Origin: Rubrobacter aplysinae | GTDB taxonomy: Bacteria > Actinomycetota > Rubrobacteria > Rubrobacterales > Rubrobacteraceae | DNA: 64,000 nt | Direction: 5' to 3' | NCBI RefSeq assembly: GCF_001029505.1 | Contig: NZ_LEKH01000006.1 | Location: forward strand, 1 to 64,000 | Shown here: in pieces, positions 643 to 62,144 of the stretch | Layout: each line of letters starts with the position of its first letter | Position numbering within the stretch: the stretch's first letter is position 1 | Made by a program: the position numbers and the translations under genes | Notes under the pieces: generated by a model | The model's database searches: none | The model's input: the letters and a program-made list of their open reading frames with translations, nothing else | Told to the model about the DNA's origin: nothing

Positions 643-724
643 TCGCGGGCCTTACAGAGGCGAGAGTGTAAAGGTTAGCCGGGGCACGTTCAACGGATAA
701 GCGGAAAATCTTCGCGGCGCGGTG

Positions 725-814
725 CGGAGAGGGGGGGATTCGAACCCCCGGTGCCGGGGTTACCGACACAACGGTTTTCGAGACCGCCGCAATAGTCCAC
801 TCTGCCACCTCTCC
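725..814 (-). tRNA. tRNA-Ser(CGA)
   Basis: The leftward 90-nt class II cloverleaf has acceptor GGAGAGG/CCTCTCC, anticodon stem GCGGT/ACCGT and a 7-nt loop CTCGAAA with anticodon CGA (complement of 778-780). It has a long variable arm, a T arm GGGGG-TTCGAAT-CCCCC and discriminator G. No CCA is encoded. It decodes UCG. It lies 82 bp upstream of the abnormal serine-type tRNA in the same orientation and is the natural reference for it. Confidence 0.95.
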
Positions 815-921
815 GCGACGGAGTCTAAACCCTGCCCCGGGGTGGTTCAACTGCCGGTTAGATAGCGAGCCTGCTCCCGGCACAGCGTAAATAGCCCAGC
901 GCATGATATTATTCACACAAT

Positions 922-1455
922 ATGAAAAAAGCGTCGCGACAGGCATTGTGGCTGATCGGGGTACCGCTGGTAGCCTTTGCAGGCGGGATAGTGGGATTTT
1001 TCCCCGTGTTCACCCTGGGACTTATGATTCCTATCTTCCTGGTCTTACCTCTGTCGCTACTGTCGGGGGCGTGGCTCGCTACGCTGTGTACCGGGTGGGT
1101 CGCCAATCTTGCTCGGTGGGGGCACAGCCGAAGCCGCCTGTTGGCCATCCTCGGCGTCTCTTTGATCGGCGGTTTCCTTGCTCTTCTACCCTACTGGGGC
1201 ACGGCCTGGCTCATAAACACCCTCTACTGGCCATCCAACTCCGCTCTAATCGGGACCATCTACTACTCCCCTTACCTGGCCGGGACTATCGTCTTCGTGG
1301 CGATCACCTCTCTGGCGACGTGGAGGCTGCGCCTCCCAATGCAAGGAGGGCTAACCGGTGAACTCCGGTTAACCCTCCTGCTGCTGGTAGCCGTACCGGC
1401 GCTTATAGTCGGTACGATATTTGCTGGCTGCAACCTAACTTACTGTGGAGCTTAG
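922..1455 (+). CDS. Four-helix membrane protein of unknown function
   Basis: This 177-residue protein starts at an ATG (MKKASRQALWLIGVP). It contains about four hydrophobic segments: roughly residues 8-30, 32-60, 70-100 and 115-175, with a break at residues 135-145. The last third has a short loop rich in Arg and Gly. No known family was recognised. It stands alone between the tRNA pair and the lower-GC gene at 1516, convergent with the latter. Codon choice is less GC-biased than in the arginine genes, which suggests either an acquired gene or a fast-evolving membrane protein. Confidence 0.65.
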   Translation: MKKASRQALWLIGVPLVAFAGGIVGFFPVFTLGLMIPIFLVLPLSLLSGAWLATLCTGWVANLARWGHSRSRLLAILGVSLIGGFLALLPYWGTAWLINTLYWPSNSALIGTIYYSPYLAGTIVFVAITSLATWRLRLPMQGGLTGELRLTLLLLVAVPALIVGTIFAGCNLTYCGA

Positions 1456-1515
1456 GCTTTGACCCCGGAGCGGTTCAACTAGACTGGATAACGCGATTTC
1501 CACCACTACTTAGCT

Positions 1516-2223
1516 TTACAGTTCAGGCCAAGCTCTGTTTATCTCTTCGCAGGATGCTTCAATGGCTTTGCGCCGTCGTATGTGTGATCGAGGTGCGGTA
1601 AATATACGCTGTCCGAAAACGTCTACTACATAGCAAAGACGCCGATCACAGGGAAATTGAGAATTCGCTTCAACGAATTGCTGCAGCATAGTAGCTGCAT
1701 AAGAACCGGCATTATCGGACATTGTGTAACTTTTACTCATGTGCAGTTTTACTGCTCCTGCAACAGAATCACCGGAACGTTTGTGCTTAGTAATCAACAG
1801 CTCTGGTTTAATACTTACAGAAACACTCTGTACTAATAACCTGGGGGGAGTCTGTTCGCCTTTGGTTAAGACAAGGCTGCCAAAGTCGAGCTTATCAGCC
1901 ATATCGATAAAAGAAAGCAATGCCTCTGCACAAACTTTGTTTCTGTTCTCTTGCCAGTCTGTACTTGCTGTCGTATTTCGGAACTCGTCTACTTTGTCTA
2001 AAAGGTCTTCATAGTCTAGATTTCCAGAGAGGAAGTCAGCTACAAGATCCTGTGCGTCAGAATATCTGGATACGATAAAGTCTTTAGGCTTTTTCTGGTC
2101 CAGTACGATGCGGCGGCGACGAGTTGCACTGTTAGTGGCCGCGTACTCGCCCAATTTATTTACAGATATTCTAGGCTCAACTCGTTCCTTTAGCACAGTC
2201 TTTCCTCCTCTAGAAGGGTGCAA
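1516..2223 (-). CDS. Orphan 235-residue protein of lower GC
   Basis: An ATG at 2223 opens a soluble 235-residue protein with no signal peptide or membrane segment. The N-terminal part has an R-I-S-V-N-K-L-G-E-Y motif, then a basic R-R-R-R-I-V-L-D-Q-K-K-P patch, then alternating helices and strands. The C-terminus is again basic (SHIRRRKAIEA). I recall similar S-V-N-K-L-G-E-Y proteins as hypotheticals in genomic islands, but no function can be assigned. The A+T-rich codon use is clearly unlike nrdJ next door and supports horizontal acquisition. A GTG at about codon 10 is an alternative start. Confidence 0.7.
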   Translation of the reverse strand: MHPSRGGKTVLKERVEPRISVNKLGEYAATNSATRRRRIVLDQKKPKDFIVSRYSDAQDLVADFLSGNLDYEDLLDKVDEFRNTTASTDWQENRNKVCAEALLSFIDMADKLDFGSLVLTKGEQTPPRLLVQSVSVSIKPELLITKHKRSGDSVAGAVKLHMSKSYTMSDNAGSYAATMLQQFVEANSQFPCDRRLCYVVDVFGQRIFTAPRSHIRRRKAIEASCEEINRAWPEL

Positions 2224-2287
2224 GCCCAGCCTTACTCTTACACCCTTCCGCGACTCGACGATTACAAAGCTACAATCACGCTTCTAA

Positions 2288-4645
2288 CTAACTGCACTTT
2301 GAGTAGCCGCAGGAGAAGCAGGTGACACAGCCCTCCTGGCGGGTCAGGCCGCTGCCGCAGTCCGGGCAGGCCCCTATTACCGGCAGCTCCCGGGCCTCAG
2401 CCCCGCCGCTGCGCTGCTCGTCCTGGGTCATGTAGTGCTCTCCGATGGCCTTCGCCACGCCATCCGGCACGGAGAGGATCGCGCTCGGGCCGACCCCGGC
2501 CGGGTGCCCGTCCTGGATACCCCGGAGCTGGTGGTGGACCTCCTCGGGGCTCGCGCCGTGGGTCATGGCGAGTGAGATCATGCGCCCCAGAGCGTCGGAG
2601 AACGCGGACGCCGTGCCGCCCGGCTTGCCGATCACGACGAAGCACTCTCGGGGGCCGAACTCGTCGTCGTTCATCGTAACGTAGAGCTGGCCGTGGCCGG
2701 TCTGGAGCTTCTTGGTTACGCCGGATAGCGTGCGTGGTCTCCCGTTGCGGGCCTCGGCGAGCGAGATGTAGTTGCCCGTGTTCGCGTCGGCCGGAGCGCC
2801 CGTCGGCGGCTCCTCGGGGGCCTCGGATTTCCCGGTAGAGCCGGTGGATCCCGTCGAGAGCACCTGGGCCTCGCGCGAGCCGTCGCGGTATACGGCGATG
2901 CCCTTGCAGCCCGTACGGTACGCCTGCAGGTAGGCGTCGCCCACGTCGCCGGTGTCAGCCTCGTTCGGGAGGTTGATGGTCTTGGATATACCCATCGAGG
3001 TGTACTTCTGGAACGCGGCCTGCATCCTGACGTGCCAGTCGCTGCCGATGTCGTGGGAGGTCACCCACACGTTCTGCACGTCCTCGGGGACGCCCGGGAT
3101 GTCGCGCACGCTGCCGTGCTCGGCGACCTGCTTCATCAGGTCTTCCGAGTAGAAGCCGCGCTCCTTGGCGAGCGCCACGAACTCGGGGTTCACGTCCGGC
3201 AGCTCCATGTCGGCCTGACGGCGCATGAACGCCACGGCGAAGAGCGGCTCGATGCCGCCGGAACAGCCCGCGATCATGGAGATGGTGCCGGTCGGGGCGA
3301 TGGTCGTGACGGTGGCGTTGCGCACCAGGTCGCCGCGCTGCTCGTGGGTCGTGCCCTCGTAGTTCGGCATGACGCCGCGCTCGTCGGCCAGGTGACGGCT
3401 CGCCTCCCACGCCTCGTCGTCCACGAACTTCATCACCTTCTCCGCGAAGGCCAGGCCCTCCTCGGAGTCGTAGGTGATGCCGAGCTTTATCAGGGCGTCG
3501 GCGAAGCCCATCACGCCGAGCCCGATGCGGCGGTTGCCGCGGCTCATGGCGTCGATCTCGGCCAGCGGGTAGCTGTTCTGCTCGATCACGTTGTCGAGGA
3601 ACCTGACCGAGGTGCGCACGGTCTCCCGCAGGCCGTCCCAGTCTATGGTGGACTCGCCGCTCGCTGCGCCCATGCTCGCGCCCGGGTTCTCGACGAACTT
3701 CACCAGGTTTATGGAGCCCAGGTTGCACGAGTCATACGGCGGCAGGTGCGCCTCGGAGCACGGGTTCGTGGACTCTATCGGGAACTGCGGCGTCGGATTG
3801 TCGTCGTTGATGCGGTCTATGAATACGACGCCGGGCTCGCCGTTGAGCCACGCGCCCTCGACTATCTCCCCGAAGAGGTCCCGGGCGTTCACCATGCTGT
3901 GGACCTCGCCGTCGCGCGGGTTGCGCAGGGCGAACTCGGAGTCTGACTCCACGGCCTCCATGAACTCGTCGGTGATGGCGACCGAGATGTTGAAGTTGTT
4001 GATCTGGTCGTTATCCCGCTTGCAGCTTATGAACTCCTCGATGTCCGGGTGATCCACCCGCAGGATGCCCATGTTCGCGCCTCTACGGGTGCCGCCCTGC
4101 TTGATCTTGTCCGTCGAGGCGTCGTATATAGCCATGAACGACACGGGCCCGCTCGACACGCCCATCGTGGACTTTACGATGTCGTTCTTGGGCCGGAGCT
4201 TGGAGAAGCCGAAGCCGGTGCCGCCGCCGGACTTGTGGATGACCGCCTGGTGCTTGAGCGTGTCGTAGATACCGTCTATTGAGTCCTCGACCGGCAAGAC
4301 GAAGCACGCCGAGAGCTGCTGTAGCTCGCGCCCGGCGTTCATCAGGGTCGGCGAGTTGGGCATGAACTTGCGGCTGGTCATAAGGCGCAGGAACTGCTCC
4401 CGGGACCGCTCGTACAGCTCCTCGGCCTCCTCGCCCCGCTTGAACCTGTACTCGCCCTCGGCGATGTTCGAGGCGACGCGGAGGAACATGTCCATGGGCT
4501 CCTCCGTGGGCTCCCCGGACTCGTCCTTCTTGAGATAGCGCTTCTTGAGCACCGCGACCGCGTTATCCGAGAGCTGCATGATCTCGTCCCTCGCCTCGCT
4601 AGAGACGCCGCTGTTTCTCCCGTTGCGCTCCGTTTCCAAAGCCAT
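2288..4645 (-). CDS. nrdJ: Class II (adenosylcobalamin-dependent) ribonucleoside-diphosphate reductase
   Basis: Converts ribonucleotides to deoxyribonucleotides using a cobalamin-derived thiyl radical, without oxygen. The 785 residues show the RNR barrel: an early active-site Cys in L-S-A-C-F-V-L-P, the N-P-C-S-E motif carrying the radical Cys and Glu, T-I-A-P-T-G-T-I-S-M-I-A, a TSCPD domain (about residues 650-740) and a Cys-rich tail (CPDCGSG...CVTCFSCGYSKC) for the redox/zinc centre. No ATP cone is visible. The ATG at 4645 directly abuts its GGGGAGG. TTG at codon 3 (4639) is better spaced from that site, so either may be used. It lies 115 bp downstream of nrdR in the same direction. Confidence 0.96.
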   Translation of the reverse strand: MALETERNGRNSGVSSEARDEIMQLSDNAVAVLKKRYLKKDESGEPTEEPMDMFLRVASNIAEGEYRFKRGEEAEELYERSREQFLRLMTSRKFMPNSPTLMNAGRELQQLSACFVLPVEDSIDGIYDTLKHQAVIHKSGGGTGFGFSKLRPKNDIVKSTMGVSSGPVSFMAIYDASTDKIKQGGTRRGANMGILRVDHPDIEEFISCKRDNDQINNFNISVAITDEFMEAVESDSEFALRNPRDGEVHSMVNARDLFGEIVEGAWLNGEPGVVFIDRINDDNPTPQFPIESTNPCSEAHLPPYDSCNLGSINLVKFVENPGASMGAASGESTIDWDGLRETVRTSVRFLDNVIEQNSYPLAEIDAMSRGNRRIGLGVMGFADALIKLGITYDSEEGLAFAEKVMKFVDDEAWEASRHLADERGVMPNYEGTTHEQRGDLVRNATVTTIAPTGTISMIAGCSGGIEPLFAVAFMRRQADMELPDVNPEFVALAKERGFYSEDLMKQVAEHGSVRDIPGVPEDVQNVWVTSHDIGSDWHVRMQAAFQKYTSMGISKTINLPNEADTGDVGDAYLQAYRTGCKGIAVYRDGSREAQVLSTGSTGSTGKSEAPEEPPTGAPADANTGNYISLAEARNGRPRTLSGVTKKLQTGHGQLYVTMNDDEFGPRECFVVIGKPGGTASAFSDALGRMISLAMTHGASPEEVHHQLRGIQDGHPAGVGPSAILSVPDGVAKAIGEHYMTQDEQRSGGAEARELPVIGACPDCGSGLTRQEGCVTCFSCGYSKCS

Positions 4646-4760
4646 CCTCCCCTTTGTCTTACGCTTGCCTTACTTACTTTACTTGTCTTACGGCCTTCGG
4701 CTTCTCCGCCGCTACCGCTTCTACTACTCTCGCTTTTACCGCTCTTGCTCCCGGCCCCTG

Positions 4761-5261
4761 CTACTGGCCCCCCTTACCCGCCGCCGGCTTCTCGGGGGCC
4801 GGAGCCCCGACGGCCCCTGAGAGCCGAACCAGCTCGGACTGGAACTGATCCACATCCGTGTACTGCCGGTACACCGAGGCGAACCTGAGATACGCGACCA
4901 TGTCGAGCCTCCGCAGCCGCACCAGGGCCATGTCGCCCAGCCGCCGCGAGGCGACCTCGTGACGCCGGCGCTCCCGAAGCTCGGCCTCGACCTCGTCCAC
5001 GATGTACTCGATCTCCTCCTCGGGCACCTGCCGCTTGGCGCAAGCCTTTACAAGACCGGCCTTGAACTTCTCCCGCTCGAAGGGCTCGCTCTCGCCGGTA
5101 CGCTTCAATACCATCAACCGGAGCGGCTCACGCCGCTCGTAGGTGGTGAAACGCTCCCCGCACGAAAGACACTCCCGGCGGCGGCGCACGGCGTCCTTGT
5201 TCTCCGAAAGCCGCGAGTCTATAACCTTAGTATCCTCGAAATCGCAGTATGGACACTGCAC
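4761..5261 (-). CDS. nrdR: Transcriptional repressor NrdR
   Basis: Zinc-ribbon/ATP-cone repressor of ribonucleotide reductase genes. The 166 residues start at a GTG (5261) preceded by CTGGAGG at 7-nt spacing, giving [17 protein letters not shown] with the second zinc pair in [13 protein letters not shown]. An ATP-cone domain follows (about residues 46-136). A longer in-frame upstream extension exists but carries no family similarity. Same-direction linkage to nrdJ is the usual NrdR arrangement. I did not find a convincing pair of NrdR boxes upstream. Confidence 0.96.
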
Positions 5262-5617
5262 CTTTCGACCTCCAGTGAGCCGAACGCCAGTAAACAGCCA
5301 ACAAAACCAGCAAAAGCCAGCAAACTCCAACATCTGGTGCTCGGGAAAGCTAGCACACCACATGTTTGCAGAGCAACAGAGCTTTTCTCACCCTAAACAT
5401 TAGCCTTACCCACCGTCTTGAGACGTCGAGGTGCATTTTTAAGGCGACTCTGCTGCGTGACCCTGCGGGCAGCGGCCCCAAAAAATCTTGCAAAAACTTT
5501 TCACGAAAGCTGTCGAAAGCGAAATTCGCAGCAAATCGTACACCTTTACCTTCAAGTACAGGCGGCAACACTGTACTACCAGTTTAACTCTAAACTTGTA
5601 TGCTCGTTAGTCTTTTT
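5262..5617. other. 356-bp nrdR upstream region
   Basis: No gene is supported here. The leftward strand would carry the nrdR promoter and leader. It holds an AT-rich block around 5480-5510, an AGTACAG/CTGTACT hairpin near 5555-5580 and a degenerate CCAGCAAA-type tandem near 5290-5335. I looked for a cobalamin riboswitch core because nrdJ needs B12 and saw none. Confidence 0.4.
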
Positions 5618-6151
5618 CTACGGTTGAGGTTTATTAGCCTGGGGGTCCGCGAAGGGTGTTTCGGGGCTTCCGCGCCGCCAGCGGAAGAAGTCGCGGAGCA
5701 GTTTGGAGGACTCGGCTTCCAGGAGCCCGGCGGAGACGGGGAAGGTGTGGTTGAGGCGGCTGTCGGAGGGGAGGTCGTGGAGGGTACCGGCGAACCCGGC
5801 CTTGGGGTCTGGGGCGGCGTAGACCAGGCGCGAGATGCGCGCGGAGTGTGCGGCTCCGGCGCACATCGGGCATGGTTCGAGGGTTGCGTAGAGCGTACAG
5901 CCGGTAAGCCGCCAGGAGCCTACGGTTTCGGCGGCCCGGCGCAGGGCGAGGACCTCGGCGTGGGCGGTGGGATCTTTGGAGGCCTCGCGCTCGTTGCCCG
6001 CCACGGATAGTATCTCCCCCCCTCTGGCGACCACGGCTCCGATCGGGATCTCACCCCGCCCGGCGGCCTCCCGGGCGGCGTCGAGGGCCCGGCCCATGAG
6101 AGCCTGGTCCGTCTCACACGGGAGCCCGGATTCAAGGTCTGGCGACATCAA
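5618..6151 (-). CDS. tadA: tRNA-specific adenosine deaminase
   Basis: Deaminates wobble adenosine-34 to inosine, mainly in tRNA-Arg(ACG). The 177-residue protein has the zinc deaminase signature H64-A-E66 with proton-shuttling Glu and P-C94-P-M-C97. It also has the family motifs I-P-I-G-A-V-V near residue 35 and G-F-A-G-T-L-H-D-L near 120. Two adjacent Met codons (6151 and 6148) are possible starts. It stands alone, transcribed away from the small gene at 6192. Length and motifs fit TadA rather than cytosine or riboflavin deaminases. Confidence 0.95.
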   Translation of the reverse strand: MMSPDLESGLPCETDQALMGRALDAAREAAGRGEIPIGAVVARGGEILSVAGNEREASKDPTAHAEVLALRRAAETVGSWRLTGCTLYATLEPCPMCAGAAHSARISRLVYAAPDPKAGFAGTLHDLPSDSRLNHTFPVSAGLLEAESSKLLRDFFRWRRGSPETPFADPQANKPQP

Positions 6152-6191
6152 CCGATAATAACAACCAGGGGCGCGGGAGACGTCCCTAGTT

Positions 6192-6632
6192 ATGAGTCCG
6201 ACGAGAGCCTGGAGGGGCCTGAGATGGATCGTGTGCGGGGAGAACGCGCTTTGGATGTTCGTGGCCTGCGGGGAGGTGTGCCGGGTGGAGTTTCTGGAGC
6301 CTAGGGGGCTGAGGTTCGAGAGCGCGATACAGAGTTTTCTGGACGGTAAATGCGCTCTCTACCAGGGAGTCAACTTCTGGAAGGCGCCCGACGGCTACCT
6401 CGAGGTACGGGTACACTCGGACCTACGGGTAGACGAGGAGCGAGGCTTGCTGGACGATCTACGCTTCGCCCGGAGCATCGCGGCGGAGATCTCCTCCGGA
6501 AGCGGGCGCTTCGCCTCCGCGGTGGAGGGCTTGCCGTGGCGGCTCATCAAGCTGGACGAGAGCGGCACCCGGGTAATCTTCCTGTACTGCCCGGAAGAGG
6601 GCAAGGTGATCTGGTCTCTAGGTTATCCCTAG
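6192..6632 (+). CDS. Hypothetical 146-residue soluble protein
   Basis: A compact ORF from ATG 6192, divergent from tadA by 40 bp, encodes a mixed alpha/beta protein (MSPTRAWRGLRWIVCGENALWMF...). It has no signal peptide or membrane segment and no family I recognise. Two Cys lie near the N-terminus (C15 and C26). Its GC-rich third codon positions match neighbouring genes, so it is probably genuine. The last codons form part of a strong hairpin (6613-6637). Confidence 0.6.
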   Translation: MSPTRAWRGLRWIVCGENALWMFVACGEVCRVEFLEPRGLRFESAIQSFLDGKCALYQGVNFWKAPDGYLEVRVHSDLRVDEERGLLDDLRFARSIAAEISSGSGRFASAVEGLPWRLIKLDESGTRVIFLYCPEEGKVIWSLGYP

Positions 6633-6637
6633 AGACC
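6613..6637 (+). terminator. Hairpin at the end of the 146-residue ORF
   Basis: GGTCTCTAGG-TTAT-CCCTAGAGACC is a perfect long-stem hairpin spanning the stop codon. It has no clear T-run, so it is either a terminator that is not classical or an mRNA-stabilising structure. Confidence 0.5.
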
Positions 6638-6925
6638 GTTGCACGAAGCGCGACCTTACACTCATCCTACAATCACCGAGACAAGTCCAACCAGCATGGC
6701 TGGCCCGGGCTGGCGGCTCTCTTCCTGCGGTATACGGTCAAGCACGGTGCCTGTAGGGGCAAAAACTATAATCGCCGGCCTCGACGTGCTGAATACCGTA
6801 CCGGCTGCGGCCCATTCAAATCCCGCTCATCTAGAACCCGGCCAGTCCTCCGCTCCCGGACAGACTTTCACCGCCGGGCCCAGAGGCCGTTTACTCGGAA
6901 GACCTCCGGCAAGCTATGCTCTGCT
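6638..6925. other. Intergenic region between convergent genes
   Basis: About 290 bp between the 146-residue gene and the 3' end of argG. Short ORFs here have no coding character. I see no recognisable RNA or repeat. Confidence 0.3.
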
Positions 6926-8146
6926 CTATTCGGCCTTCTGCCGGGCGCTCTCGACGTCCCCGTGTACCCCGGCCCACTGGCGGGCGGGCAGGCCCCAGAG
7001 CGCGATGAACCCGGCGGCTGCGGACTCGTCGAAGGTGCTGTTGGGGTCGTAGGTGGCGAGGTCCTGGCTGTAGAGCGGCTTCTCTGCGGTGCGCCCGGAG
7101 ACGGTTGCGGAGCCCTTGTACAGCTTCAGGCGCACCGTGCCGGTGGCCGTCTTCTGGGTCTCGTCTATGAAGGCGTCGAGCGCGGCCTTTAGCGGGGTGA
7201 ACCACAGCCCGTCGTAGGTGAGCTCGGCGTAGCGCTGCTCGACCTGGGCCTTGAAGCGCAGCACGTCCTTGGTAAGCGTCATGGACTCCAGCTCGCGGTG
7301 GGCCTGTATCAGGGCGAGGGCGGCGGGGGCCTCGTAGATCTCACGGCTCTTTATCCCGACGAGCCGGTCCTCGATCATGTCTATACGCCCGAACCCGTGC
7401 TCGCCGGCAATTACGTTGAGGGCGGGGATGAGATCCACCAGCGCCATCTCCCGGCCGTCCAGGCTCGTCGGCAGCCCTTTCTCGAAGCCGATCTCGACGT
7501 GGCGCGGCTCGTCGGGCGCATCCTCCGGCTCGGCGGTCATCTCGAACACGTCCGGGGTGGGCTCGTGATCGGGGTCCTCCAGCGGACCGGCTTCTATGGA
7601 GCGGCCAAACAGGTTCTCGTCCACGCTGTAGGGAGACTCTTTGGTCGTCGGCACCGGGATACCGTTCTCGCGGGCAAACTCCATCTCCTCCGGGCGGCTC
7701 ATGCCCCACTCGCGCACCGGTGCGACGACCTTGAGGTCCGGCGCGATAGAAGCGGTGGTAACGTCGAAGCGCACCTGATCGTTGCCCTTGCCGGTCGAGC
7801 CGTGGGCGATATTTTCAGCCCCGACTTCCCGCGCCGCCTCCACGAGCTTCTTGGCGATCAGCGGCCGCCCGAGTGCGGTGAATAGCGGATACCTCCCACC
7901 GTACATCGCGTTCGCCTTTATGGCGGGCGCGACGTACTCGTCGGCGAACTCGGCCCTCGCGTCTCGCACGAAGGCGTCGGCCGCCCCTATATTCAGAGCC
8001 TTCTTCTTTACGTCCACCGCGGGCTCGCCCTGGCCGAGATCCAGATACAGCGCATACGGCTCCGCGCCGCGCTGCTCGAACCACTTCAGACACACCGAAG
8101 TGTCCAGCCCGCCCGAGTAGGCGAGCACTACCTTCTCTCCCTGCAA
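6926..8146 (-). CDS. argG: Argininosuccinate synthase
   Basis: Joins citrulline and aspartate with ATP, the penultimate step of arginine synthesis. The 406 residues begin with the PP-loop A-Y-S-G-G-L-D-T-S and include G-S-T-G-K-G-N-D-Q-V-R-F and R-E-W-G-M-S-R-P-E-E-M. The start is TTG at 8146, six bases after CTGGAGGT. It is the last gene of the leftward argC-argR-argG unit, 46 bp from argR. The gap contains an ATACTA-A-TAGTAT palindrome (8164-8176) of unknown role. argH is not in the window. Confidence 0.97.
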   Translation of the reverse strand: MQGEKVVLAYSGGLDTSVCLKWFEQRGAEPYALYLDLGQGEPAVDVKKKALNIGAADAFVRDARAEFADEYVAPAIKANAMYGGRYPLFTALGRPLIAKKLVEAAREVGAENIAHGSTGKGNDQVRFDVTTASIAPDLKVVAPVREWGMSRPEEMEFARENGIPVPTTKESPYSVDENLFGRSIEAGPLEDPDHEPTPDVFEMTAEPEDAPDEPRHVEIGFEKGLPTSLDGREMALVDLIPALNVIAGEHGFGRIDMIEDRLVGIKSREIYEAPAALALIQAHRELESMTLTKDVLRFKAQVEQRYAELTYDGLWFTPLKAALDAFIDETQKTATGTVRLKLYKGSATVSGRTAEKPLYSQDLATYDPNSTFDESAAAGFIALWGLPARQWAGVHGDVESARQKAE

Positions 8147-8192
8147 GTCTCTACCTCCAGATATACTAATAGTATCTAGCTAAGGTTCAGGG

Positions 8193-8651
8193 TTAATCTA
8201 TGTTTCCGGCGGGCCGGGTCTTTGCCCGGCACACGTCGGTGAGGAGGCTGGTGACCTCCTCGGCGGCGGCGCTATCGGGAGCGGCGGCCATAACGGTGTC
8301 GAGGCCGGCTATGGTGCCGACTATCCTGAGGCCCCGGACGCGGTCGAGGACGTTTGCCACTGCTCCGGCGGTGCCGTCGCGGGTGTGGATGACGACCGTG
8401 TGCTGCGCCGGGGTGACGCGCAGGATAAAGCTCGGGAGCACCTCTATGCCGGCCATGCCGGGCTCGTGTGGCAGGGCGAGATAGCGGCTGCCGACCTTGA
8501 GGACGCCGAGCTCGGCCAGGTCGCGGCTTACGGTGGCCTGGGCGACCTCCACCCCGGCCTCCCCGAGAGCCTCGGCGACGTCCTGCTGCGTGCCGAGCTC
8601 TTTCTCCGAGATCAGGCGCAGTATAAGATCCTGGCGGGTGGTCTTGTCCAT
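8193..8651 (-). CDS. argR: Arginine repressor
   Basis: Hexameric arginine-responsive regulator. The N-terminal winged helix (MDKTTRQDLILRLISEKELGTQQDVAEAL...ATVSRDLAELG) carries the family S-R-D recognition motif. The C-terminal domain ends in a V-M-A-A-A-P-D-S region like the arginine-binding part. The ATG at 8651 aligns with the usual ArgR/AhrC N-terminus and has GAGG upstream. A TTG at 8672 also has a good GGGAGG site and would add seven residues. The gene sits between argC and argG, so it is probably autoregulated with its targets. Confidence 0.94.
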   Translation of the reverse strand: MDKTTRQDLILRLISEKELGTQQDVAEALGEAGVEVAQATVSRDLAELGVLKVGSRYLALPHEPGMAGIEVLPSFILRVTPAQHTVVIHTRDGTAGAVANVLDRVRGLRIVGTIAGLDTVMAAAPDSAAAEEVTSLLTDVCRAKTRPAGNID

Positions 8652-8725
8652 GTTGGACCTCGTGGCTCCCAAGCGTTCCTCCCTCTACGATTCTCTTTTA
8701 TATCGTTTTTATACTGCCTCGACCT

Positions 8726-9745
8726 CTACTTCAGGTGCTCTAGCCCGAGCTCCTCGGGGTGACCGAGCGCGAGGTTCATGTTCTGCACGGCGGCCCCGGA
8801 GGCCCCCTTGAGCAGGTTATCTATGGCGGAGAAGAGTATTAGCTTGCCCGCCGTCTCGTCCACCGCCGCGGAAAGCCTCACGCGGTTGGTGCCCGTAACG
8901 TGGGCTATCTGCGGGTACTCCTCGCGGGCCTCGACGAAGGACCAGCCCGAGTAGTCGTCGGCGTACCACCCCAGGGCCTCCTCGGCGGTCGGGAGATCCA
9001 GAGGGTCCTCGGGCTCGACCGTGATCGTCTCCAGTATGCCCCGGCTTACGGGCACCAGGTGCGGCACGAAGGTGACGTCCGGCGTCTCCCCCACCCGGTC
9101 GAGCACGTTCTGTATCTCGGGCGCGTGGCGGTGGCGCGGGAAGCCGTAGGCGGAGACGTTCTCGTTTGCGCTCACGTAGTGGGTCTTTCCGGACGGCCGG
9201 GCCCCGGCCCCGCTCACCCCCGAGAGCGCGTTCACCGTTACCGACCGCACCCGCCCGTCCAGCCTCTTTACGACCGGCGCGAGCGCGAGCGTCGCGGCCG
9301 TCGGGTAGCAGCCGGGGTTTGCTATTAGCCGCGTGTTCTCCGGCGTGCCGAAGAGTTCCGGCAGGCCGTAGTGCGCCTCCTGTATAAGCCCCGGCTCGGG
9401 GTGCTCACCGTACCACTCGGCGTACAATGCGCCCGGCAGCCGGAAGTCGGCGGAGAGGTCCACGACCAGCCCGGCTCCGGCGTCCAGCAGCCGGGCTACG
9501 GTCTCGGCGCTCTCGCCGTGCGAGTACGCGACGAAAGCCACGTCGAGCCCGGCGGCCTCGACCTCCTCCGGCGCGACGAACTCCCCCTCCGCCGAAAGCT
9601 GCGGAAAGACGCCGCTTATCTTCTGCCCCGCGTTACCCCGCGAGGCGACCTCCAGGGAACCCACCTCCGGGTGCACCGAGAGCAGCCGTATAAGCTCGAT
9701 CCCACCGTACCCGCTGCCGCCGTAGATGCCGACCTTCAAACCCAT
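8726..9745 (-). CDS. argC: N-acetyl-gamma-glutamyl-phosphate reductase
   Basis: NADPH-dependent reduction of N-acetylglutamyl phosphate. The 339 residues start at ATG 9745 (MGLKVGIYGGSGYGGIELIRLL) with the Rossmann G-x-S-G-Y-x-G motif, the catalytic Cys in I-A-N-P-G-C-Y-P-T-A and H-R-H-x-P-E-I. A longer frame runs upstream, but that part lies over the ARG-box promoter and has no family similarity. The ribosome site is weak. It is first in the leftward unit, divergent from argJ. Confidence 0.96.
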   Translation of the reverse strand: MGLKVGIYGGSGYGGIELIRLLSVHPEVGSLEVASRGNAGQKISGVFPQLSAEGEFVAPEEVEAAGLDVAFVAYSHGESAETVARLLDAGAGLVVDLSADFRLPGALYAEWYGEHPEPGLIQEAHYGLPELFGTPENTRLIANPGCYPTAATLALAPVVKRLDGRVRSVTVNALSGVSGAGARPSGKTHYVSANENVSAYGFPRHRHAPEIQNVLDRVGETPDVTFVPHLVPVSRGILETITVEPEDPLDLPTAEEALGWYADDYSGWSFVEAREEYPQIAHVTGTNRVRLSAAVDETAGKLILFSAIDNLLKGASGAAVQNMNLALGHPEELGLEHLK

Positions 9746-9767
9746 GCCCGCAATTACAACACCCCCG

Positions 9768-9779
9768 GAATAATTATTC
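9768..9779. promoter_or_regulatory. ARG box 1 (ArgR operator)
   Basis: The perfect palindrome GAATAATTATTC lies 22 bp upstream of the argC start. It matches the core of ArgR/AhrC operators and probably controls argC and the divergent argJ. Confidence 0.75.
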
Positions 9780-9840
9780 AAGTTTTTGCATAAACCCCGT
9801 TGAACTTCCCGGAGCCGGGTGCGACAATCCCGCTGGCTTA

Positions 9841-9854
9841 TGAATAAAGATTCA
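9841..9854. promoter_or_regulatory. ARG box 2 (ArgR operator)
   Basis: TGAATAAAGATTCA is a near-palindromic second ARG box, centred 74 bp from box 1 and 22 bp before the chosen argJ start. Two boxes about seven helical turns apart fit cooperative ArgR binding or looping across the divergent promoter. Confidence 0.7.
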
Positions 9855-9875
9855 ACATTTCGCATAGAGCCGCCG

Positions 9876-11075
9876 ATGGAGGAGGCTCCGGGCGGGGCGA
9901 CGGCGCCGGAGGGGTTCGCGGCGTGCGGCATCGTCTGCGGCGTGCGGGGCGAGGGGGGCCGGGATCTCGGCCTGCTCTACTCGGAGTCGCCGTGCGTGTC
10001 GGTGGGGGTGTATACGCGCAACGCCTTCGAGGGTGCGCCGCTTGCGGTAACGCGGGAGGCGGTAGAGGCCGGTGCGGTGCGGGCCGTCGTCGCGAACAGC
10101 GGCAACGCCAACGCCGCGACCGGAGCGCCGGGCGTGGAGGATGCGCGGGCCATGCAGGAGTCGGCGGCCCGGGCGCTGGGGCTCGGCGCGCGGGAGGTCG
10201 CGGTGGCTTCGACCGGGGTTATCGGGGAGCGGCTGCCGATTGAGCGTATACGGGAGAGCATCCCCGAGGTGGCCGGAGGGTTGAGCCGGGACGGGTCGTC
10301 GTTCGCCGAGGCCATACTTACCACGGACACGCGCACGAAAGAGGCCGCGGTTCGGGTGCCGCTCGGCGGCGGGTACGTTACCGTCGGCGGGACGGCGAAG
10401 GGGAGCGGCATGATCCACCCGAACATGGGCACCATGCTCGCCTTCCTGACCACCGACGCGGCGGTGGACCGCGACTGTCTGCAAGAGACTCTCGCCCGGA
10501 CGGTGGACTTCTCGTTCAACCGCGTCACCGTGGACGGCGACACCTCACCGTCTGACATGGCGCTCCTGCTGGCGAACGGCGCGGCGGGCAACGAGCCGCT
10601 AAACGCCGACTCGTCCGAGTACCCGGCGTTCGTCGAGGCGGTAGAGGCGGTAACGAAACGGCTGGCGCGGGAGATCGCGCGCGACGGCGAGGGTGCCACG
10701 AAGCTGGTAGAGGCGACGGTCGAGGGGGCGCGGGATGAGGAGCAGGCCGCCGCGCTCGCGAAGGCGGTGGTCGGCAGCAGTCTGGTCAAGGCCGCCGTCG
10801 CCGGGGAGGACGCCAACTGGGGCCGGGTGCTGGTCGCCCTGGGGTACTCCGGCGCGGAGTTCGACCCGGCGGGGCTCACGCTGTACTTCGGCGGCGTGAA
10901 GGTCTTCGAGGCCGGTGAGCCCGTCGCCCACGACGAGAAGGCGGCGAACCGGGCGCTCGCCGGGGACGAGGTCGAGATCCGGGCGGTCGTCGGGAGTCGC
11001 GGGGCGTCGGCGACGGCGTGGGGCTGTGATCTCACCTACGAGTACGTCAGGATCAACGGGAGCTACAGGACTTGA
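9876..11075 (+). CDS. argJ: Bifunctional glutamate N-acetyltransferase / amino-acid acetyltransferase
   Basis: Recycles the acetyl group from N-acetylornithine to glutamate. The self-cleaving precursor motif is visible: KGSGMIHPNMGTMLAFLTT, where the Thr before M-L is the N-terminal nucleophile of the beta chain. N-A-N-A-A-T-G and the terminal S-Y-R-T also fit. An ATG at 9840 would overlap ARG box 2 and has no ribosome site, so ATG 9876 (MEEAPGGATAPEGF) is preferred, but it too has only a weak site. It is first gene of argJBDF and overlaps argB by 4 bp. Confidence 0.95.
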   Translation: MEEAPGGATAPEGFAACGIVCGVRGEGGRDLGLLYSESPCVSVGVYTRNAFEGAPLAVTREAVEAGAVRAVVANSGNANAATGAPGVEDARAMQESAARALGLGAREVAVASTGVIGERLPIERIRESIPEVAGGLSRDGSSFAEAILTTDTRTKEAAVRVPLGGGYVTVGGTAKGSGMIHPNMGTMLAFLTTDAAVDRDCLQETLARTVDFSFNRVTVDGDTSPSDMALLLANGAAGNEPLNADSSEYPAFVEAVEAVTKRLAREIARDGEGATKLVEATVEGARDEEQAAALAKAVVGSSLVKAAVAGEDANWGRVLVALGYSGAEFDPAGLTLYFGGVKVFEAGEPVAHDEKAANRALAGDEVEIRAVVGSRGASATAWGCDLTYEYVRINGSYRT

Positions 11076-11842
11076 GCGAGCCGGGAAAAACTCTGGACCC
11101 GGTAGTGGTAAAGGTCGGCGGCGGAGCTCTGGAGGGCGGCGCCCTGGAGGACGTGCGCGATCTGGCCGCCGGCGGGAGGCCCGTGGTGCTGGTCCACGGC
11201 GGCGGCAACCGGCTAACGCAGATGCTCGAAGCCCTGGGCGTCGAGAGCCACTTCGTCGAGGGGCTGCGCGTCACCGACGAGGCCGCGCTGGAGGTCGCGG
11301 AGATGGTCTACGCCGGGCACGTGAACAAGACGCTCGGGCGCGGGCTAAACTCTTTGGGCATCCCGGCGGTCGGCATCTCGGGGACGGACGGCCCGACCTT
11401 GCGCGTCTCCCCTGTTCCGGGGCTAGGACGGGTCGGAAAGGTACAGAAGGTGGAGGGAGCCCTGATCCAGACCCTCCTGAACGGCGGGTTCGTGCCGACC
11501 GTCGCCCCCCTGGGTCTGGGCCCGGAGGGCGCGTACAACGTGAACGCGGACTCGGCCGCCGCCGCCCTGGCGGTCGCGCTCGGAGCGGGGCATCTGTTCC
11601 TCCTGACGGACGTGGACGGGCTGCTGGCGGACGGAGAGCTGGTCTCCTCGCTCACCCCGGAGGAGTGCGAGGGGTACGTCGAGAGCGGGCTGGCCGCCGG
11701 CGGCATGGTGCCGAAGCTGCGCACGGCCTCCGAGGCGGCGCAGGGCGGGGTCGAGGCCCGGATAGTGAACGGAGAGCGACGAGGCGTGCTGCTCGACGCC
11801 CTCTCCGGCGAGAAGGCCGGGACGTTGGTATCCGGGAGGTAG
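11072..11842 (+). CDS. argB: Acetylglutamate kinase
   Basis: ATP-dependent phosphorylation of N-acetylglutamate. The 256 residues contain V-V-V-K-V-G-G-G, V-L-V-H-G-G-G, the G-L-R-V-T-D motif, N-V-N-A-D-S-A-A and L-T-D-V-D-G-L. The TTG start is inside TTGA, overlapping the argJ stop, which implies translational coupling. The protein is short and lacks the extra N-terminal helix that confers arginine feedback inhibition in longer homologues. It may therefore be insensitive to arginine, which is inference. Confidence 0.95.
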   Translation: MSEPGKTLDPVVVKVGGGALEGGALEDVRDLAAGGRPVVLVHGGGNRLTQMLEALGVESHFVEGLRVTDEAALEVAEMVYAGHVNKTLGRGLNSLGIPAVGISGTDGPTLRVSPVPGLGRVGKVQKVEGALIQTLLNGGFVPTVAPLGLGPEGAYNVNADSAAAALAVALGAGHLFLLTDVDGLLADGELVSSLTPEECEGYVESGLAAGGMVPKLRTASEAAQGGVEARIVNGERRGVLLDALSGEKAGTLVSGR

Positions 11843-15389: not shown

Positions 15390-15722
15390 TCACCTAAGCG
15401 AGGCCATAAAGTCGTCCCGCCGGTACAGATACTCCTGCGAGCCCGGAACCGGGTTCGGGTTGACGACCACGAGATCGAAGTTCTTCAGCACGTCGTCGAG
15501 CTCCTCCTTTTCGAGCCTGACCGCCCGCCAGCCGTCGCCCGGGATCTGGGCCCGCCACCGCTCGTAGAACTCCTCCGCCTCGCCAAGCCCCTCGAAGACG
15601 CACACCACCTCGCCCTCGTCGGCGCTGTAGGAAAGGTATCCGGGCACCTCGCCCTCCAGCCTCTCCAGCACCGCGTAACCGTTACCGTTTCCCGGCGTCT
15701 CGAACACCTTGAACCTCTCCAC
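15390..15722 (-). CDS. Hypothetical 110-residue protein
   Basis: GTG 15722 starts a soluble alpha/beta protein (MERFKVFETPGNGNGYAVLERLEGEVPGYLSYS...) rich in Glu and aromatic residues. No family was recognised and no Cys cluster is present. It is the last chromosomal gene before the inserted element and is transcribed toward the sortase gene, 153 bp away. Confidence 0.6.
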   Translation of the reverse strand: MERFKVFETPGNGNGYAVLERLEGEVPGYLSYSADEGEVVCVFEGLGEAEEFYERWRAQIPGDGWRAVRLEKEELDDVLKNFDLVVVNPNPVPGSQEYLYRRDDFMASLR

Positions 15723-59737: not shown

Positions 59738-60133
59738 ATGCAGGAAATGCAGGAGAGCTTTAAAGAACAGCCGGAGACGTTGGAGGGCGTGGAAGTCGGG
59801 CGGGACGACGAGATCATGTGCCTGCTATCCAAGTTCTTCAACGGCTTCTCGAACCCCACCCGGCTCTCGATCCTGCTGCTCCTGGCCCGGCGGGGCGAGA
59901 CCCGGGTCGGTGAGCTGGTCGAAGAGCTGGAGGCGCCACAGCCCAGGATCTCGGATCACCTGCGGTGCCTCTCCTGGTGCGGGTACGTCGGGGTGCGCCG
60001 GGAGGGCCGCAACGCCTTCTACTCCATAGCCGACAGCCGCGTGATGCAGATGATCTGCCTGGGTGAGTCGCTGCTGCGCGACAACCTGGAGCGCGTCGAG
60101 GCCTGCGGCGTGACCGCCGAGCCGGCCTGCTAA
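59738..60133 (+). CDS. ArsR-family transcriptional regulator
   Basis: The 131-residue winged helix contains F-F-N-G-F-S-N-P-T-R-L-S-I-L-L-L-L and V-G-E-L-V-E-E-L-E-A-P-Q-P-R-I-S-D-H-L-R-C-L. Cys residues at C-x3-C (C-L-S-W-C) in the recognition region, near the N-terminus and at the extreme C-terminus could bind metal or sense thiols. The target is unknown; the neighbouring GST gene is a candidate. Confidence 0.9.
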   Translation: MQEMQESFKEQPETLEGVEVGRDDEIMCLLSKFFNGFSNPTRLSILLLLARRGETRVGELVEELEAPQPRISDHLRCLSWCGYVGVRREGRNAFYSIADSRVMQMICLGESLLRDNLERVEACGVTAEPAC

Positions 60134-60201: not shown

Positions 60202-60801
60202 CTATAGCGAGGCCTGGTAGCTCTCACGTTCCTCCACGCGGCTCATCCAGGCGGAGACGTTCGGGTAGTTACCCAGGGATACGTCTCCCCCGTCATCCAG
60301 CCCGCGCAGGCGCTTGAAGGCCCCGGCGTGGGCGATGTCCGCGAGCGAGAACCCGCCGGACAGGTACTCCCGGCCCTCTAGTCTGCTCTCCACGGCCGAG
60401 AGCGCAGTGCCCAGGTTCTCCAGCGGCTCGGAGAGCTCGCTTTCAGGCTCGCCACGCTCGCGGCGGAAGCTGACCTTGAACACGGCCGGGTAGAAGCTCT
60501 CGTCGGCAGAGACCATCCACACACGGGCGAAGGCTCGCTCTTTTGCCTCCTCCGGCAACAGCGGCCGTTCCTCGTACACCTCGTCCAGGTACTGGTTTAC
60601 CGCGTTCGACTCGTAGAGCGCGTCGCCCTCGTCCACGGCCAGCACGGGCACCTTGCCTGTCGGGCTGACGCTCAAAAACTCCTCGCTCTTGTTCTGCAGG
60701 TCTACCTCGCGGTTCTCGAAGTCCGCATCCTTCTCTTGCAGGACCATCCTGGTCCGCATCGCGAACGGTCAACCCTGGGTATTGTAGAGTACCGGCTTCA
60801 T
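60202..60801 (-). CDS. Glutathione-S-transferase-family protein with UGA at the active-site Cys (candidate selenoprotein)
   Basis: ATG 60801 has an ideal AGGAGG six bases upstream and reads MKPVLYNTQG-UGA-PFAMRTRMVLQEK. In omega/beta-type GSTs this is exactly the C-P-F-A-x-R-T-R active-site motif, so the UGA (60769-60771) replaces the catalytic Cys. The rest (S-P-T-G-K-V-P-V-L; Y-E-S-N-A-V-N-Q-Y-L-D; the all-alpha C-terminal domain) is intact, giving 199 residues. A hairpin suited to a bacterial SECIS follows the UGA. If UGA is read as stop, only an N-truncated protein from an internal ATG (60759) without a ribosome site is possible. The Sec machinery is not in the window. Confidence 0.8.
60741..60755 (-). 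promoter_or_regulatory. SECIS-like hairpin downstream of the UGA
   Basis: On the mRNA strand GGACC-AGGAT-GGTCC forms a 5-bp stem, extendable by GC pairs across one bulge. The loop begins A-G-G and starts 18 nt after the UGA. This is within the usual spacing and has the apical G of bacterial SECIS elements. Confidence 0.6.
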
Positions 60802-61034
60802 CCAAACCTCCTGAGAGATGCGTAAAATACATCCGGTTTAACGTTTGCGAGGCAGATCTTAGCATGAGACTCGTGCGTTACCGTGAGCGTAATCTCCAAC
60901 GGTACCCCGATACATGGTAGGCTGGCATGTCTCCGTTTTCCGTTTACGAAGGTGCCCTCCGCGGGAACACGAGGTAGGTTGAGGAACAAAAGAGAGACAC
61001 GACGAAGATAGATCGGGCAGAAGGAGCTTTGATA

Positions 61035-62144
61035 GTGGCACAGGCGCAGGACATAAGACAGGCGATAGGTGAGATCTCGGCGCTCGAAGGCCCGATACTC
61101 TCGGCGTACATCCACGTGGACCCGGGGGTCTCCCAGAATCAGGAGCAGGCCTACGAGGTGCGCGCCCGAAACGCGATGGACGAGGCGGGCGTGCCAGAAG
61201 AGGTTGCCGACAGGGTGCGTCACACCCTGGGTCAGGAGAAGCCCGAGGCCCGGAGCATGGCGATCTTCGCCGACGAGAGCGGGATGCTGGAGCTGTACCG
61301 GCTACAGGTGGCCCTGCCCGAGACCGTCCGCTGGGGCGAGCCGAACGTCTCGCCGATGCTACTAGCGTTGGACGAGCAGGAGCCCTACGGCGTGGCGCTC
61401 GTGGACGCCGAGAACTTCCGGTACTTCGTCATCTCGCGCGTGCAGGCCCCGGCCGGAGAGGCGCTGGAGCACAAGGGCAGCGGGTACCTGGAGGTGGATA
61501 CCTCGCCCTCGACCCCCGGCCCGCGCGGCGGCATGGACCGCGACGCCCAGAGCCGACGCACCGAGCACAACATCGCCGAGTTCTACAACGAGCTCGGCGG
61601 CCAGATCCGGGACATCACCTTCCGCGAGGGCGTGCAGCGCCTGATCCTGGCCGGCCCCAAGGAGCGGACCTCTGACCTGCGCTCCCGGCTGCCGCAGGAC
61701 GTCGCCAGTCGCGTCGTGGCCGAGGAGAACGTGCCGCTCGACGCCCCCGACGGCGACATCATAGACCGTCTCGAGGAGGTACGCGAGAACTCCGAGCACG
61801 AGCGTGCCGGGGAGCTACTGGCCGAGATCCGGGAGTCCGGCGTCTCCGGTCTGGACCGTACCGTCGAGGCGCTCCAGATCGAGAACCGGGTGCATCACCT
61901 CGTGGTCTTATGGGACATCGAAGGTGAGATCCGGTGGTCCGACGAGGAGCAGATGGCCGTACAGGACATCACCCAGACCGAGACCCTCTCCGGCGCCGAG
62001 ACCCGCGTGCGCCCCCTGATGGACGTGCTGCTGGACCTCGCCGCCACCCGTGGAGCCCGCGTGGACTTCATGCGCGGCGAGGACGAGAACGCCGTGACCC
62101 TGCGCGACGAGTTCGGCGGCGTCGCGGGACGCACCAGGTTCTAA
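61035..62144 (+). CDS. VLRF1/baeRF-type (eRF1-like) protein
   Basis: GTG 61035 follows AAGGAG at 8-nt spacing. The protein of about 369 residues begins as the bacterial-archaeal release-factor-like family (I-L-S-A-Y-I-H-V-D-P...). It has the central V-A-L-V-D-A-E-N-F-R-Y-F-V-I-S, R-L-I-L-A-G-P-K-E-R-T and a C-terminal V-D-F-M-R-G-E-D-E-N region like eRF1 domain 3. The GGQ motif is replaced by a G-P-R-G-G-M-D loop. Proposed family roles are ribosome rescue or hibernation; none is proven here. It is divergent from the candidate selenoprotein gene. Confidence 0.82.
   Translation: MAQAQDIRQAIGEISALEGPILSAYIHVDPGVSQNQEQAYEVRARNAMDEAGVPEEVADRVRHTLGQEKPEARSMAIFADESGMLELYRLQVALPETVRWGEPNVSPMLLALDEQEPYGVALVDAENFRYFVISRVQAPAGEALEHKGSGYLEVDTSPSTPGPRGGMDRDAQSRRTEHNIAEFYNELGGQIRDITFREGVQRLILAGPKERTSDLRSRLPQDVASRVVAEENVPLDAPDGDIIDRLEEVRENSEHERAGELLAEIRESGVSGLDRTVEALQIENRVHHLVVLWDIEGEIRWSDEEQMAVQDITQTETLSGAETRVRPLMDVLLDLAATRGARVDFMRGEDENAVTLRDEFGGVAGRTRF

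Follow-up and report, generated by a model that had tools for sequence, protein, structure and literature searches.

A probable selenocysteine-containing GST-fold protein encoded in Rubrobacter aplysinae and its relatives

The minus strand of the 64-kb window (the whole stretch of Rubrobacter aplysinae DNA analysed here) carries what is almost certainly a functional selenoprotein gene, in which selenocysteine (Sec) would be inserted at codon 11 of a GST-fold redox enzyme, hereafter named Sec-GST. We computed the gene structure, the pairing of the in-frame UGA with Cys in homologues, a covarying hairpin, the complete Sec machinery of the genome and the protein fold. The machinery, the UGA/Cys column, the hairpin and the fold strongly support the preliminary description of this DNA, which had proposed that Sec insertion gives a Sec-GST. 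The features of the locus are as follows.

60202-60801, minus strand: Sec-GST gene, ATG start, 199 codons, UGA (predicted Sec) at codon 11, TAG stop (Pfam and AlphaFold2)
60807-60812, minus strand: Shine-Dalgarno sequence AGGAGG, 5 nt upstream of the ATG (from the sequence)
60769-60771, minus strand: UGA codon 11, probably read as selenocysteine, aligned with the catalytic Cys of GST/SspA homologues
60738-60757, minus strand: putative bSECIS hairpin, stem GGACC(A)/(U)GGUCC, apical GGA, GC/GC extension below a bulged U
59738-60133, plus strand: ArsR/SmtB-family regulator, convergent with Sec-GST and linked to it in 14/17 Rubrobacteraceae loci

Reading frame and conservation of the UGA codon

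The start region reads AGGAGG-TTTGG-ATG(60801) on the minus strand. Codons 1-10 (MKPVLYNTQG) are followed by TGA at 60771-60769, then by PFAMRTRMVLQEK... in the same frame, with 188 open codons down to the TAG at 60204-60202, exactly, to the base, as first described. In Pfam, the read-through protein matches GST_N_3 (8.5e-20) and GST_C (2.1e-10), both well above the curated cut-offs, and the match to the N-terminal GST domain spans the UGA codon. Translation would begin at ATG 60801 and continue through codon 11.

A search of the class (39 genomes) identified 17 Rubrobacteraceae orthologues, including the present one. Not every member of the class has the gene: at the search threshold, 22 of the 39 genomes, including several incomplete assemblies, gave no match. 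In a phylum sample of 396 genomes, Sec-GST was not found outside Rubrobacteraceae at E<=1e-25. Codon 11 is TGA, never Cys, in all 15 orthologues with a visible N-terminus, the remaining two being cut by contig ends; TGA 60769-60771 is therefore no sequencing error, an objection that had been anticipated. In every Rubrobacteraceae orthologue checked, a start codon (ATG, GTG or TTG) lies exactly ten codons 5' of the UGA, and GGAGG/AGGAG-type sites precede it in most of them. The L-Y-N/S-T-Q stretch before the UGA is kept as protein, with synonymous change, and the region around the UGA is conserved as LYNTQ-U-PYA. The part upstream of codon 15, whose lack of conservation would have spoken against the gene, is thus conserved. 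In addition, one Rubrobacteraceae genome contains a diverged paralogue (L036, 39% identity), again with TGA. A copy from a metagenome-assembled genome (L033, G018:C411) keeps the start, the UGA and a compensated hairpin (GCACC/GGTGC), and has a one-base frameshift just past the hairpin, which reflects either an assembly error or a decaying copy.

Among more distant homologues, 62 from Pseudomonadota have TGC or TGT in the codon-11 column, and TGA recurs in five distant genes, which belong to Myxococcota, Binatota and Syntrophobacter. In cyanobacterial relatives, a Ser-type motif (ASTF) occupies the Sec site. SelB is present in all five distant TGA genomes, as compared to 3 of the 14 Cys- or Ser-form genomes tested. 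On the tree, the UGA form needs two changes, which are weakly supported. Overall, the claim that the UGA sits on the redox Cys is borne out by the Cys found at this position in the 62 homologues and by the CPF motif of SspA, which aligns with U11-PF.

A conventional gene caller had been expected to begin at the internal ATG 60759 and to lose the active site. Mechanical ORF calling does precisely this, yielding 185 aa from ATG 60759, and a later ATG in relatives. Translation from ATG 60759, or from the ATG in AGGATGGTC, with the upstream frame left untranslated and no active site in the product, is nevertheless very improbable. The other Rubrobacteraceae orthologues have an Arg or Leu codon in place of ATG 60759, and one of them (L027) has ATA in place of the later ATG in AGGATGGTC. 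The ten codons upstream of the UGA are conserved as protein together with their start codon. Moreover, a product from ATG 60759 would be devoid of strand 1 and of the active-site residue of the fold. Ordinary gene callers thus mis-annotate Sec-GST, dropping its active site.

The hairpin downstream of the UGA

The hairpin that had been described, GGACC/GGTCC with AGG in its loop, 18 nt after the UGA, is present, with GGACC at 60755-60751, AGGAT at 60750-60746 and GGTCC at 60745-60741. Its loop begins 18 nt past the UGA; counting the closing A-U pair as part of the stem moves this to 19 nt and reduces the loop to a GGA triloop. The published bSECIS model has a loop of 3-9 nt with G in the first two positions and a stem of 4-16 bp, the loop lying 16-37 nt after the UGA, with a minimum free energy <= -7.5 kcal/mol (PMC13188914). 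With a GGA (or AGGAT) loop, an upper stem of 5-6 bp, a distance of 18-19 nt and -11.8 kcal/mol, the window hairpin falls within every one of these ranges, in line with the bacterial SECIS geometry proposed for it.

The element is kept across the family. In 20/20 distinct TGA sequences, a stem of 6 bp encloses a GGA or GGC triloop that starts 19 nt past the UGA (18 nt with the closing A-U pair taken as loop), and each of these aligned sequences folds at <= -7.6 kcal/mol. In these 20 sequences, 99.2% of the hairpin cells are paired, one pair being lost in one sequence. Pair 15-27 varies between G-C, C-G, A-U and G-U, and pair 18-24 between C-G and A-U, such that two pairs show changes on both sides. 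The covariation score is 0.229, as compared to 0.056 for shuffled and <=0.043 for slid alignments, and lies above all 500 shuffles. In Rubrobacteraceae, the changes at 15-27 are compensating and synonymous and affect the third bases of the Arg16 and Val20 codons (CGG/GTC, CGC/GTG, CGA/GTT); in orthologue L027, the variant is ATA/GTT and the stem is weaker. The Arg18 codon, from which the GG of the loop derives, is AGG in 20/20 TGA genes and in 0/62 Cys genes, and hairpins are weaker in most Cys homologues of nearly identical peptide.

Taken alone, the window hairpin is only modestly unusual for its peptide, since about 4% of its synonymous shuffles fold as well; for most sequences, about 4-7% are as stable. 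Because these single-sequence statistics are weak, the case for the hairpin rests on family-level covariation and on the AGG codon. Judged from the alignment, covariation at synonymous sites is strong family-level evidence for a Sec-GST SECIS and indicates that the hairpin after the UGA is real.

Both strands of the 64-kb window were also scanned without bias for a TGA combined with a start carrying a Shine-Dalgarno sequence, at least 60 open codons and a bSECIS-like hairpin. Just four places passed, Sec-GST among them, which argues that its arrangement is more than chance. The other three were rejected as Sec genes: on inspection, their peptides were taken to come from frames that overlap other genes or a gene boundary. 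For the place at 15392, the ORFs were checked additionally.

Selenocysteine machinery and decoding

The surveyed genome (3.19 Mb, 33 contigs, 98.9% complete) contains the complete set of selA, selB, selC and selD, the absence of which had been put forward as a possible refutation. SelB scores over its curated cut-off, a tRNA-Sec with anticodon TCA directly adjoins selB, and SelA comes next, so that selA, selB and selC lie side by side. selD is found elsewhere in the genome and contains one in-frame TGA (KAG-U-ASKF), at the usual Sec position of SelD. Within the class, SelB occurs in 29/39 genomes and in 21/22 good genomes. The selA-selB-tRNA-Sec cluster (L017, G000:C5:177000-195000, 679-11665) directly adjoins a predicted haem/sirohaem biosynthesis run, whose members, as predicted from sequence, are hemA, hemC, a uroporphyrinogen methyltransferase/synthase, hemB and hemL, as well as a putative moaC-like ORF outside this run. 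In the window itself, a tRNA-Sec candidate at 724-816 reaches the gathering cut-off of the model and was rejected, being tRNA-Ser (CGA); a tRNA-like call at 550-642 adjoins it.

Decoding of the UGA codon would fall to tRNA-Sec together with SelB, which the hairpin (60757-60738) within the coding sequence would recruit. Reading of the UGA as Trp, or its suppression by a near-cognate tRNA, would also account for the open frame, and nothing further was found in its favour; with Cys and never Trp aligned to the UGA, and with tRNA-Sec (anticodon TCA), selA, selB, selD and a bSECIS hairpin after the UGA at hand, we regard it as highly unlikely. Least probable of all is that the gene is a pseudogene with a nonsense mutation, or that codon 11 was mis-sequenced: homologues do carry a sense codon where this frame has TGA, but the comparative data refute such a reading, since 15 orthologues and six more distant genes share the TGA across independent assemblies, with protein sequence conserved on both sides and a covarying hairpin downstream.

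Fold, family and possible function

The AlphaFold2 model of Sec-GST (pLDDT 95, pTM 0.90) has strand 1 at residues 4-7 and helix 1 at residues 12-23. In this model, residue 11 caps the N-terminus of helix 1, the place taken by Cys in omega/SspA-type GSTs. The predicted product, 199 residues long, would have a GST fold with Sec at the N-terminal end of helix 1 and PFA immediately after it. The G-site residues V51-P52 (cis-Pro position) and E64-S65 are invariant in 27 sequences. There is no UxxC motif, that is, no resolving Cys in the UxxC position, and Sec-GST is therefore monothiol-like.

The fold matches those of tau, phi and omega GSTs and of SspA. SspA and related bacterial Cys-GSTs are the best sequence relatives with a solved structure (6v91, 4qq7; E about 1e-22), with the Cys of CPF aligned to U11-PF; they differ by having Cys where the Rubrobacter protein would have Sec. 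Identity as SspA itself was rejected, the equivalog score of 74 bits being far below the cut-off of 314. Omega- and tau-class GSTs have the same fold (TM-score 0.84-0.89; 26-34% identity). In the alignment with omega-class GSTO1 (1eem, 5-195 to 26-212), Sec-GST residue 11 aligns near chain position 32; Cys32 is the known catalytic residue of omega GSTs. In contrast to these enzymes, Sec-GST is bacterial, and Sec would replace Cys (omega) or Ser (tau).

The Sec selenolate would most likely perform the chemistry of Cys-type (omega/beta/SspA-like) GSTs. Candidate reactions are thiol transfer of the deglutathionylation type, peroxide reduction, reduction of dehydroascorbate-like substrates, or soft-metal or metalloid binding and reduction; a small thiol would supply the electrons. 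In the 98.9% complete genome, glutamate-cysteine ligase scores over its cut-off, whereas the GshB ATP-grasp/glutathione synthetase domain PF02955 was not found. MshC was not found either, the sole strong MshC-like gene of the genome being cysteine-tRNA ligase. With neither GshB domain nor MshC in the genome, both glutathione and mycothiol are doubtful as thiol substrate; gamma-glutamylcysteine or imported glutathione is possible.

Sec-containing GST-like proteins have been listed since 2005, when the Sargasso Sea survey found 4 sequences, followed by 12 in the GOS survey (PMC1088965, PMC2398784, PMC9312934, PMC13188914), and the family appears in reviews of 2022 and 2026 (PMC9312934, PMC13188914). 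The latter describes almost all such proteins as largely uncharacterised in function (PMC13188914). The marine family (PF13409, COG0625) shares with Sec-GST the GST fold, an in-frame UGA, no listed UxxC and widespread Cys homologues; the likeness of marine members (e.g. PPR62222.1, MEK9676863.1) to the Rubrobacter gene is one of description. The surveys in which this family was described drew on marine metagenomes, and the passages found in them mention neither members from Rubrobacterales or Binatota/Myxococcota nor an ArsR neighbour. In Rubrobacter xylanophilus, a tRNA-Sec has been described (PMC5330540), and five selenoproteins were reported in 2006 in a survey of sequenced bacteria that leaves glutathione S-transferase unmentioned (PMC1794560). 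Our literature search returned no paper reporting a Sec-GST in Rubrobacter. Hence, of the "new selenoprotein" proposed in the preliminary description, the selenoprotein stands while the novelty of the family does not: the Rubrobacter gene is, on good support, a further member of the Sec-GST-like family. What is new is the Rubrobacteraceae clade and the adjacent ArsR/SmtB gene with invariant Cys in 14/17 loci. A family so far listed bioinformatically is thereby extended to a defined actinobacterial clade and to Myxococcota/Binatota.

The ArsR/SmtB orthologues are 63-76% identical and lie inside the 1.5 kb flanks in these 14 loci (present locus counted), convergent in some and otherwise placed within the flank in others. 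The aldo-keto reductase located beyond ArsR occurs in none of the relatives' Sec-GST flanks. Three Cys of the regulator, in EMC and HLRCLxxCGY, are invariant among 14 aligned orthologues. The Cys-x3-Cys pair of CmtR (2jsc, HLSCLRGCGLV), a Cd/Pb sensor, aligns with the same pair in HLRCLSWCGYV of the neighbour. Filing of the regulator as TsoR/CmtR was rejected, its score of 43 bits falling below the CmtR cut-off, which is 150. The linkage to an ArsR with invariant Cys aligned to the CmtR pair suggests that Sec-GST, which this regulator may control, belongs to a soft-metal or thiol-stress response, and provides a functional clue for a selenoprotein family that had none. More tentatively, the Rubrobacteraceae Sec-GST and the CmtR-like ArsR might form a conserved metal/metalloid or electrophile-response pair, with a selenolate GST using a non-glutathione thiol such as gamma-glutamylcysteine.

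On the other side of Sec-GST, the divergent neighbour (61029-62144) is a bacterial archaeo-eukaryotic release-factor-like protein (baeRF family 10), which is also near Sec-GST in three relatives.
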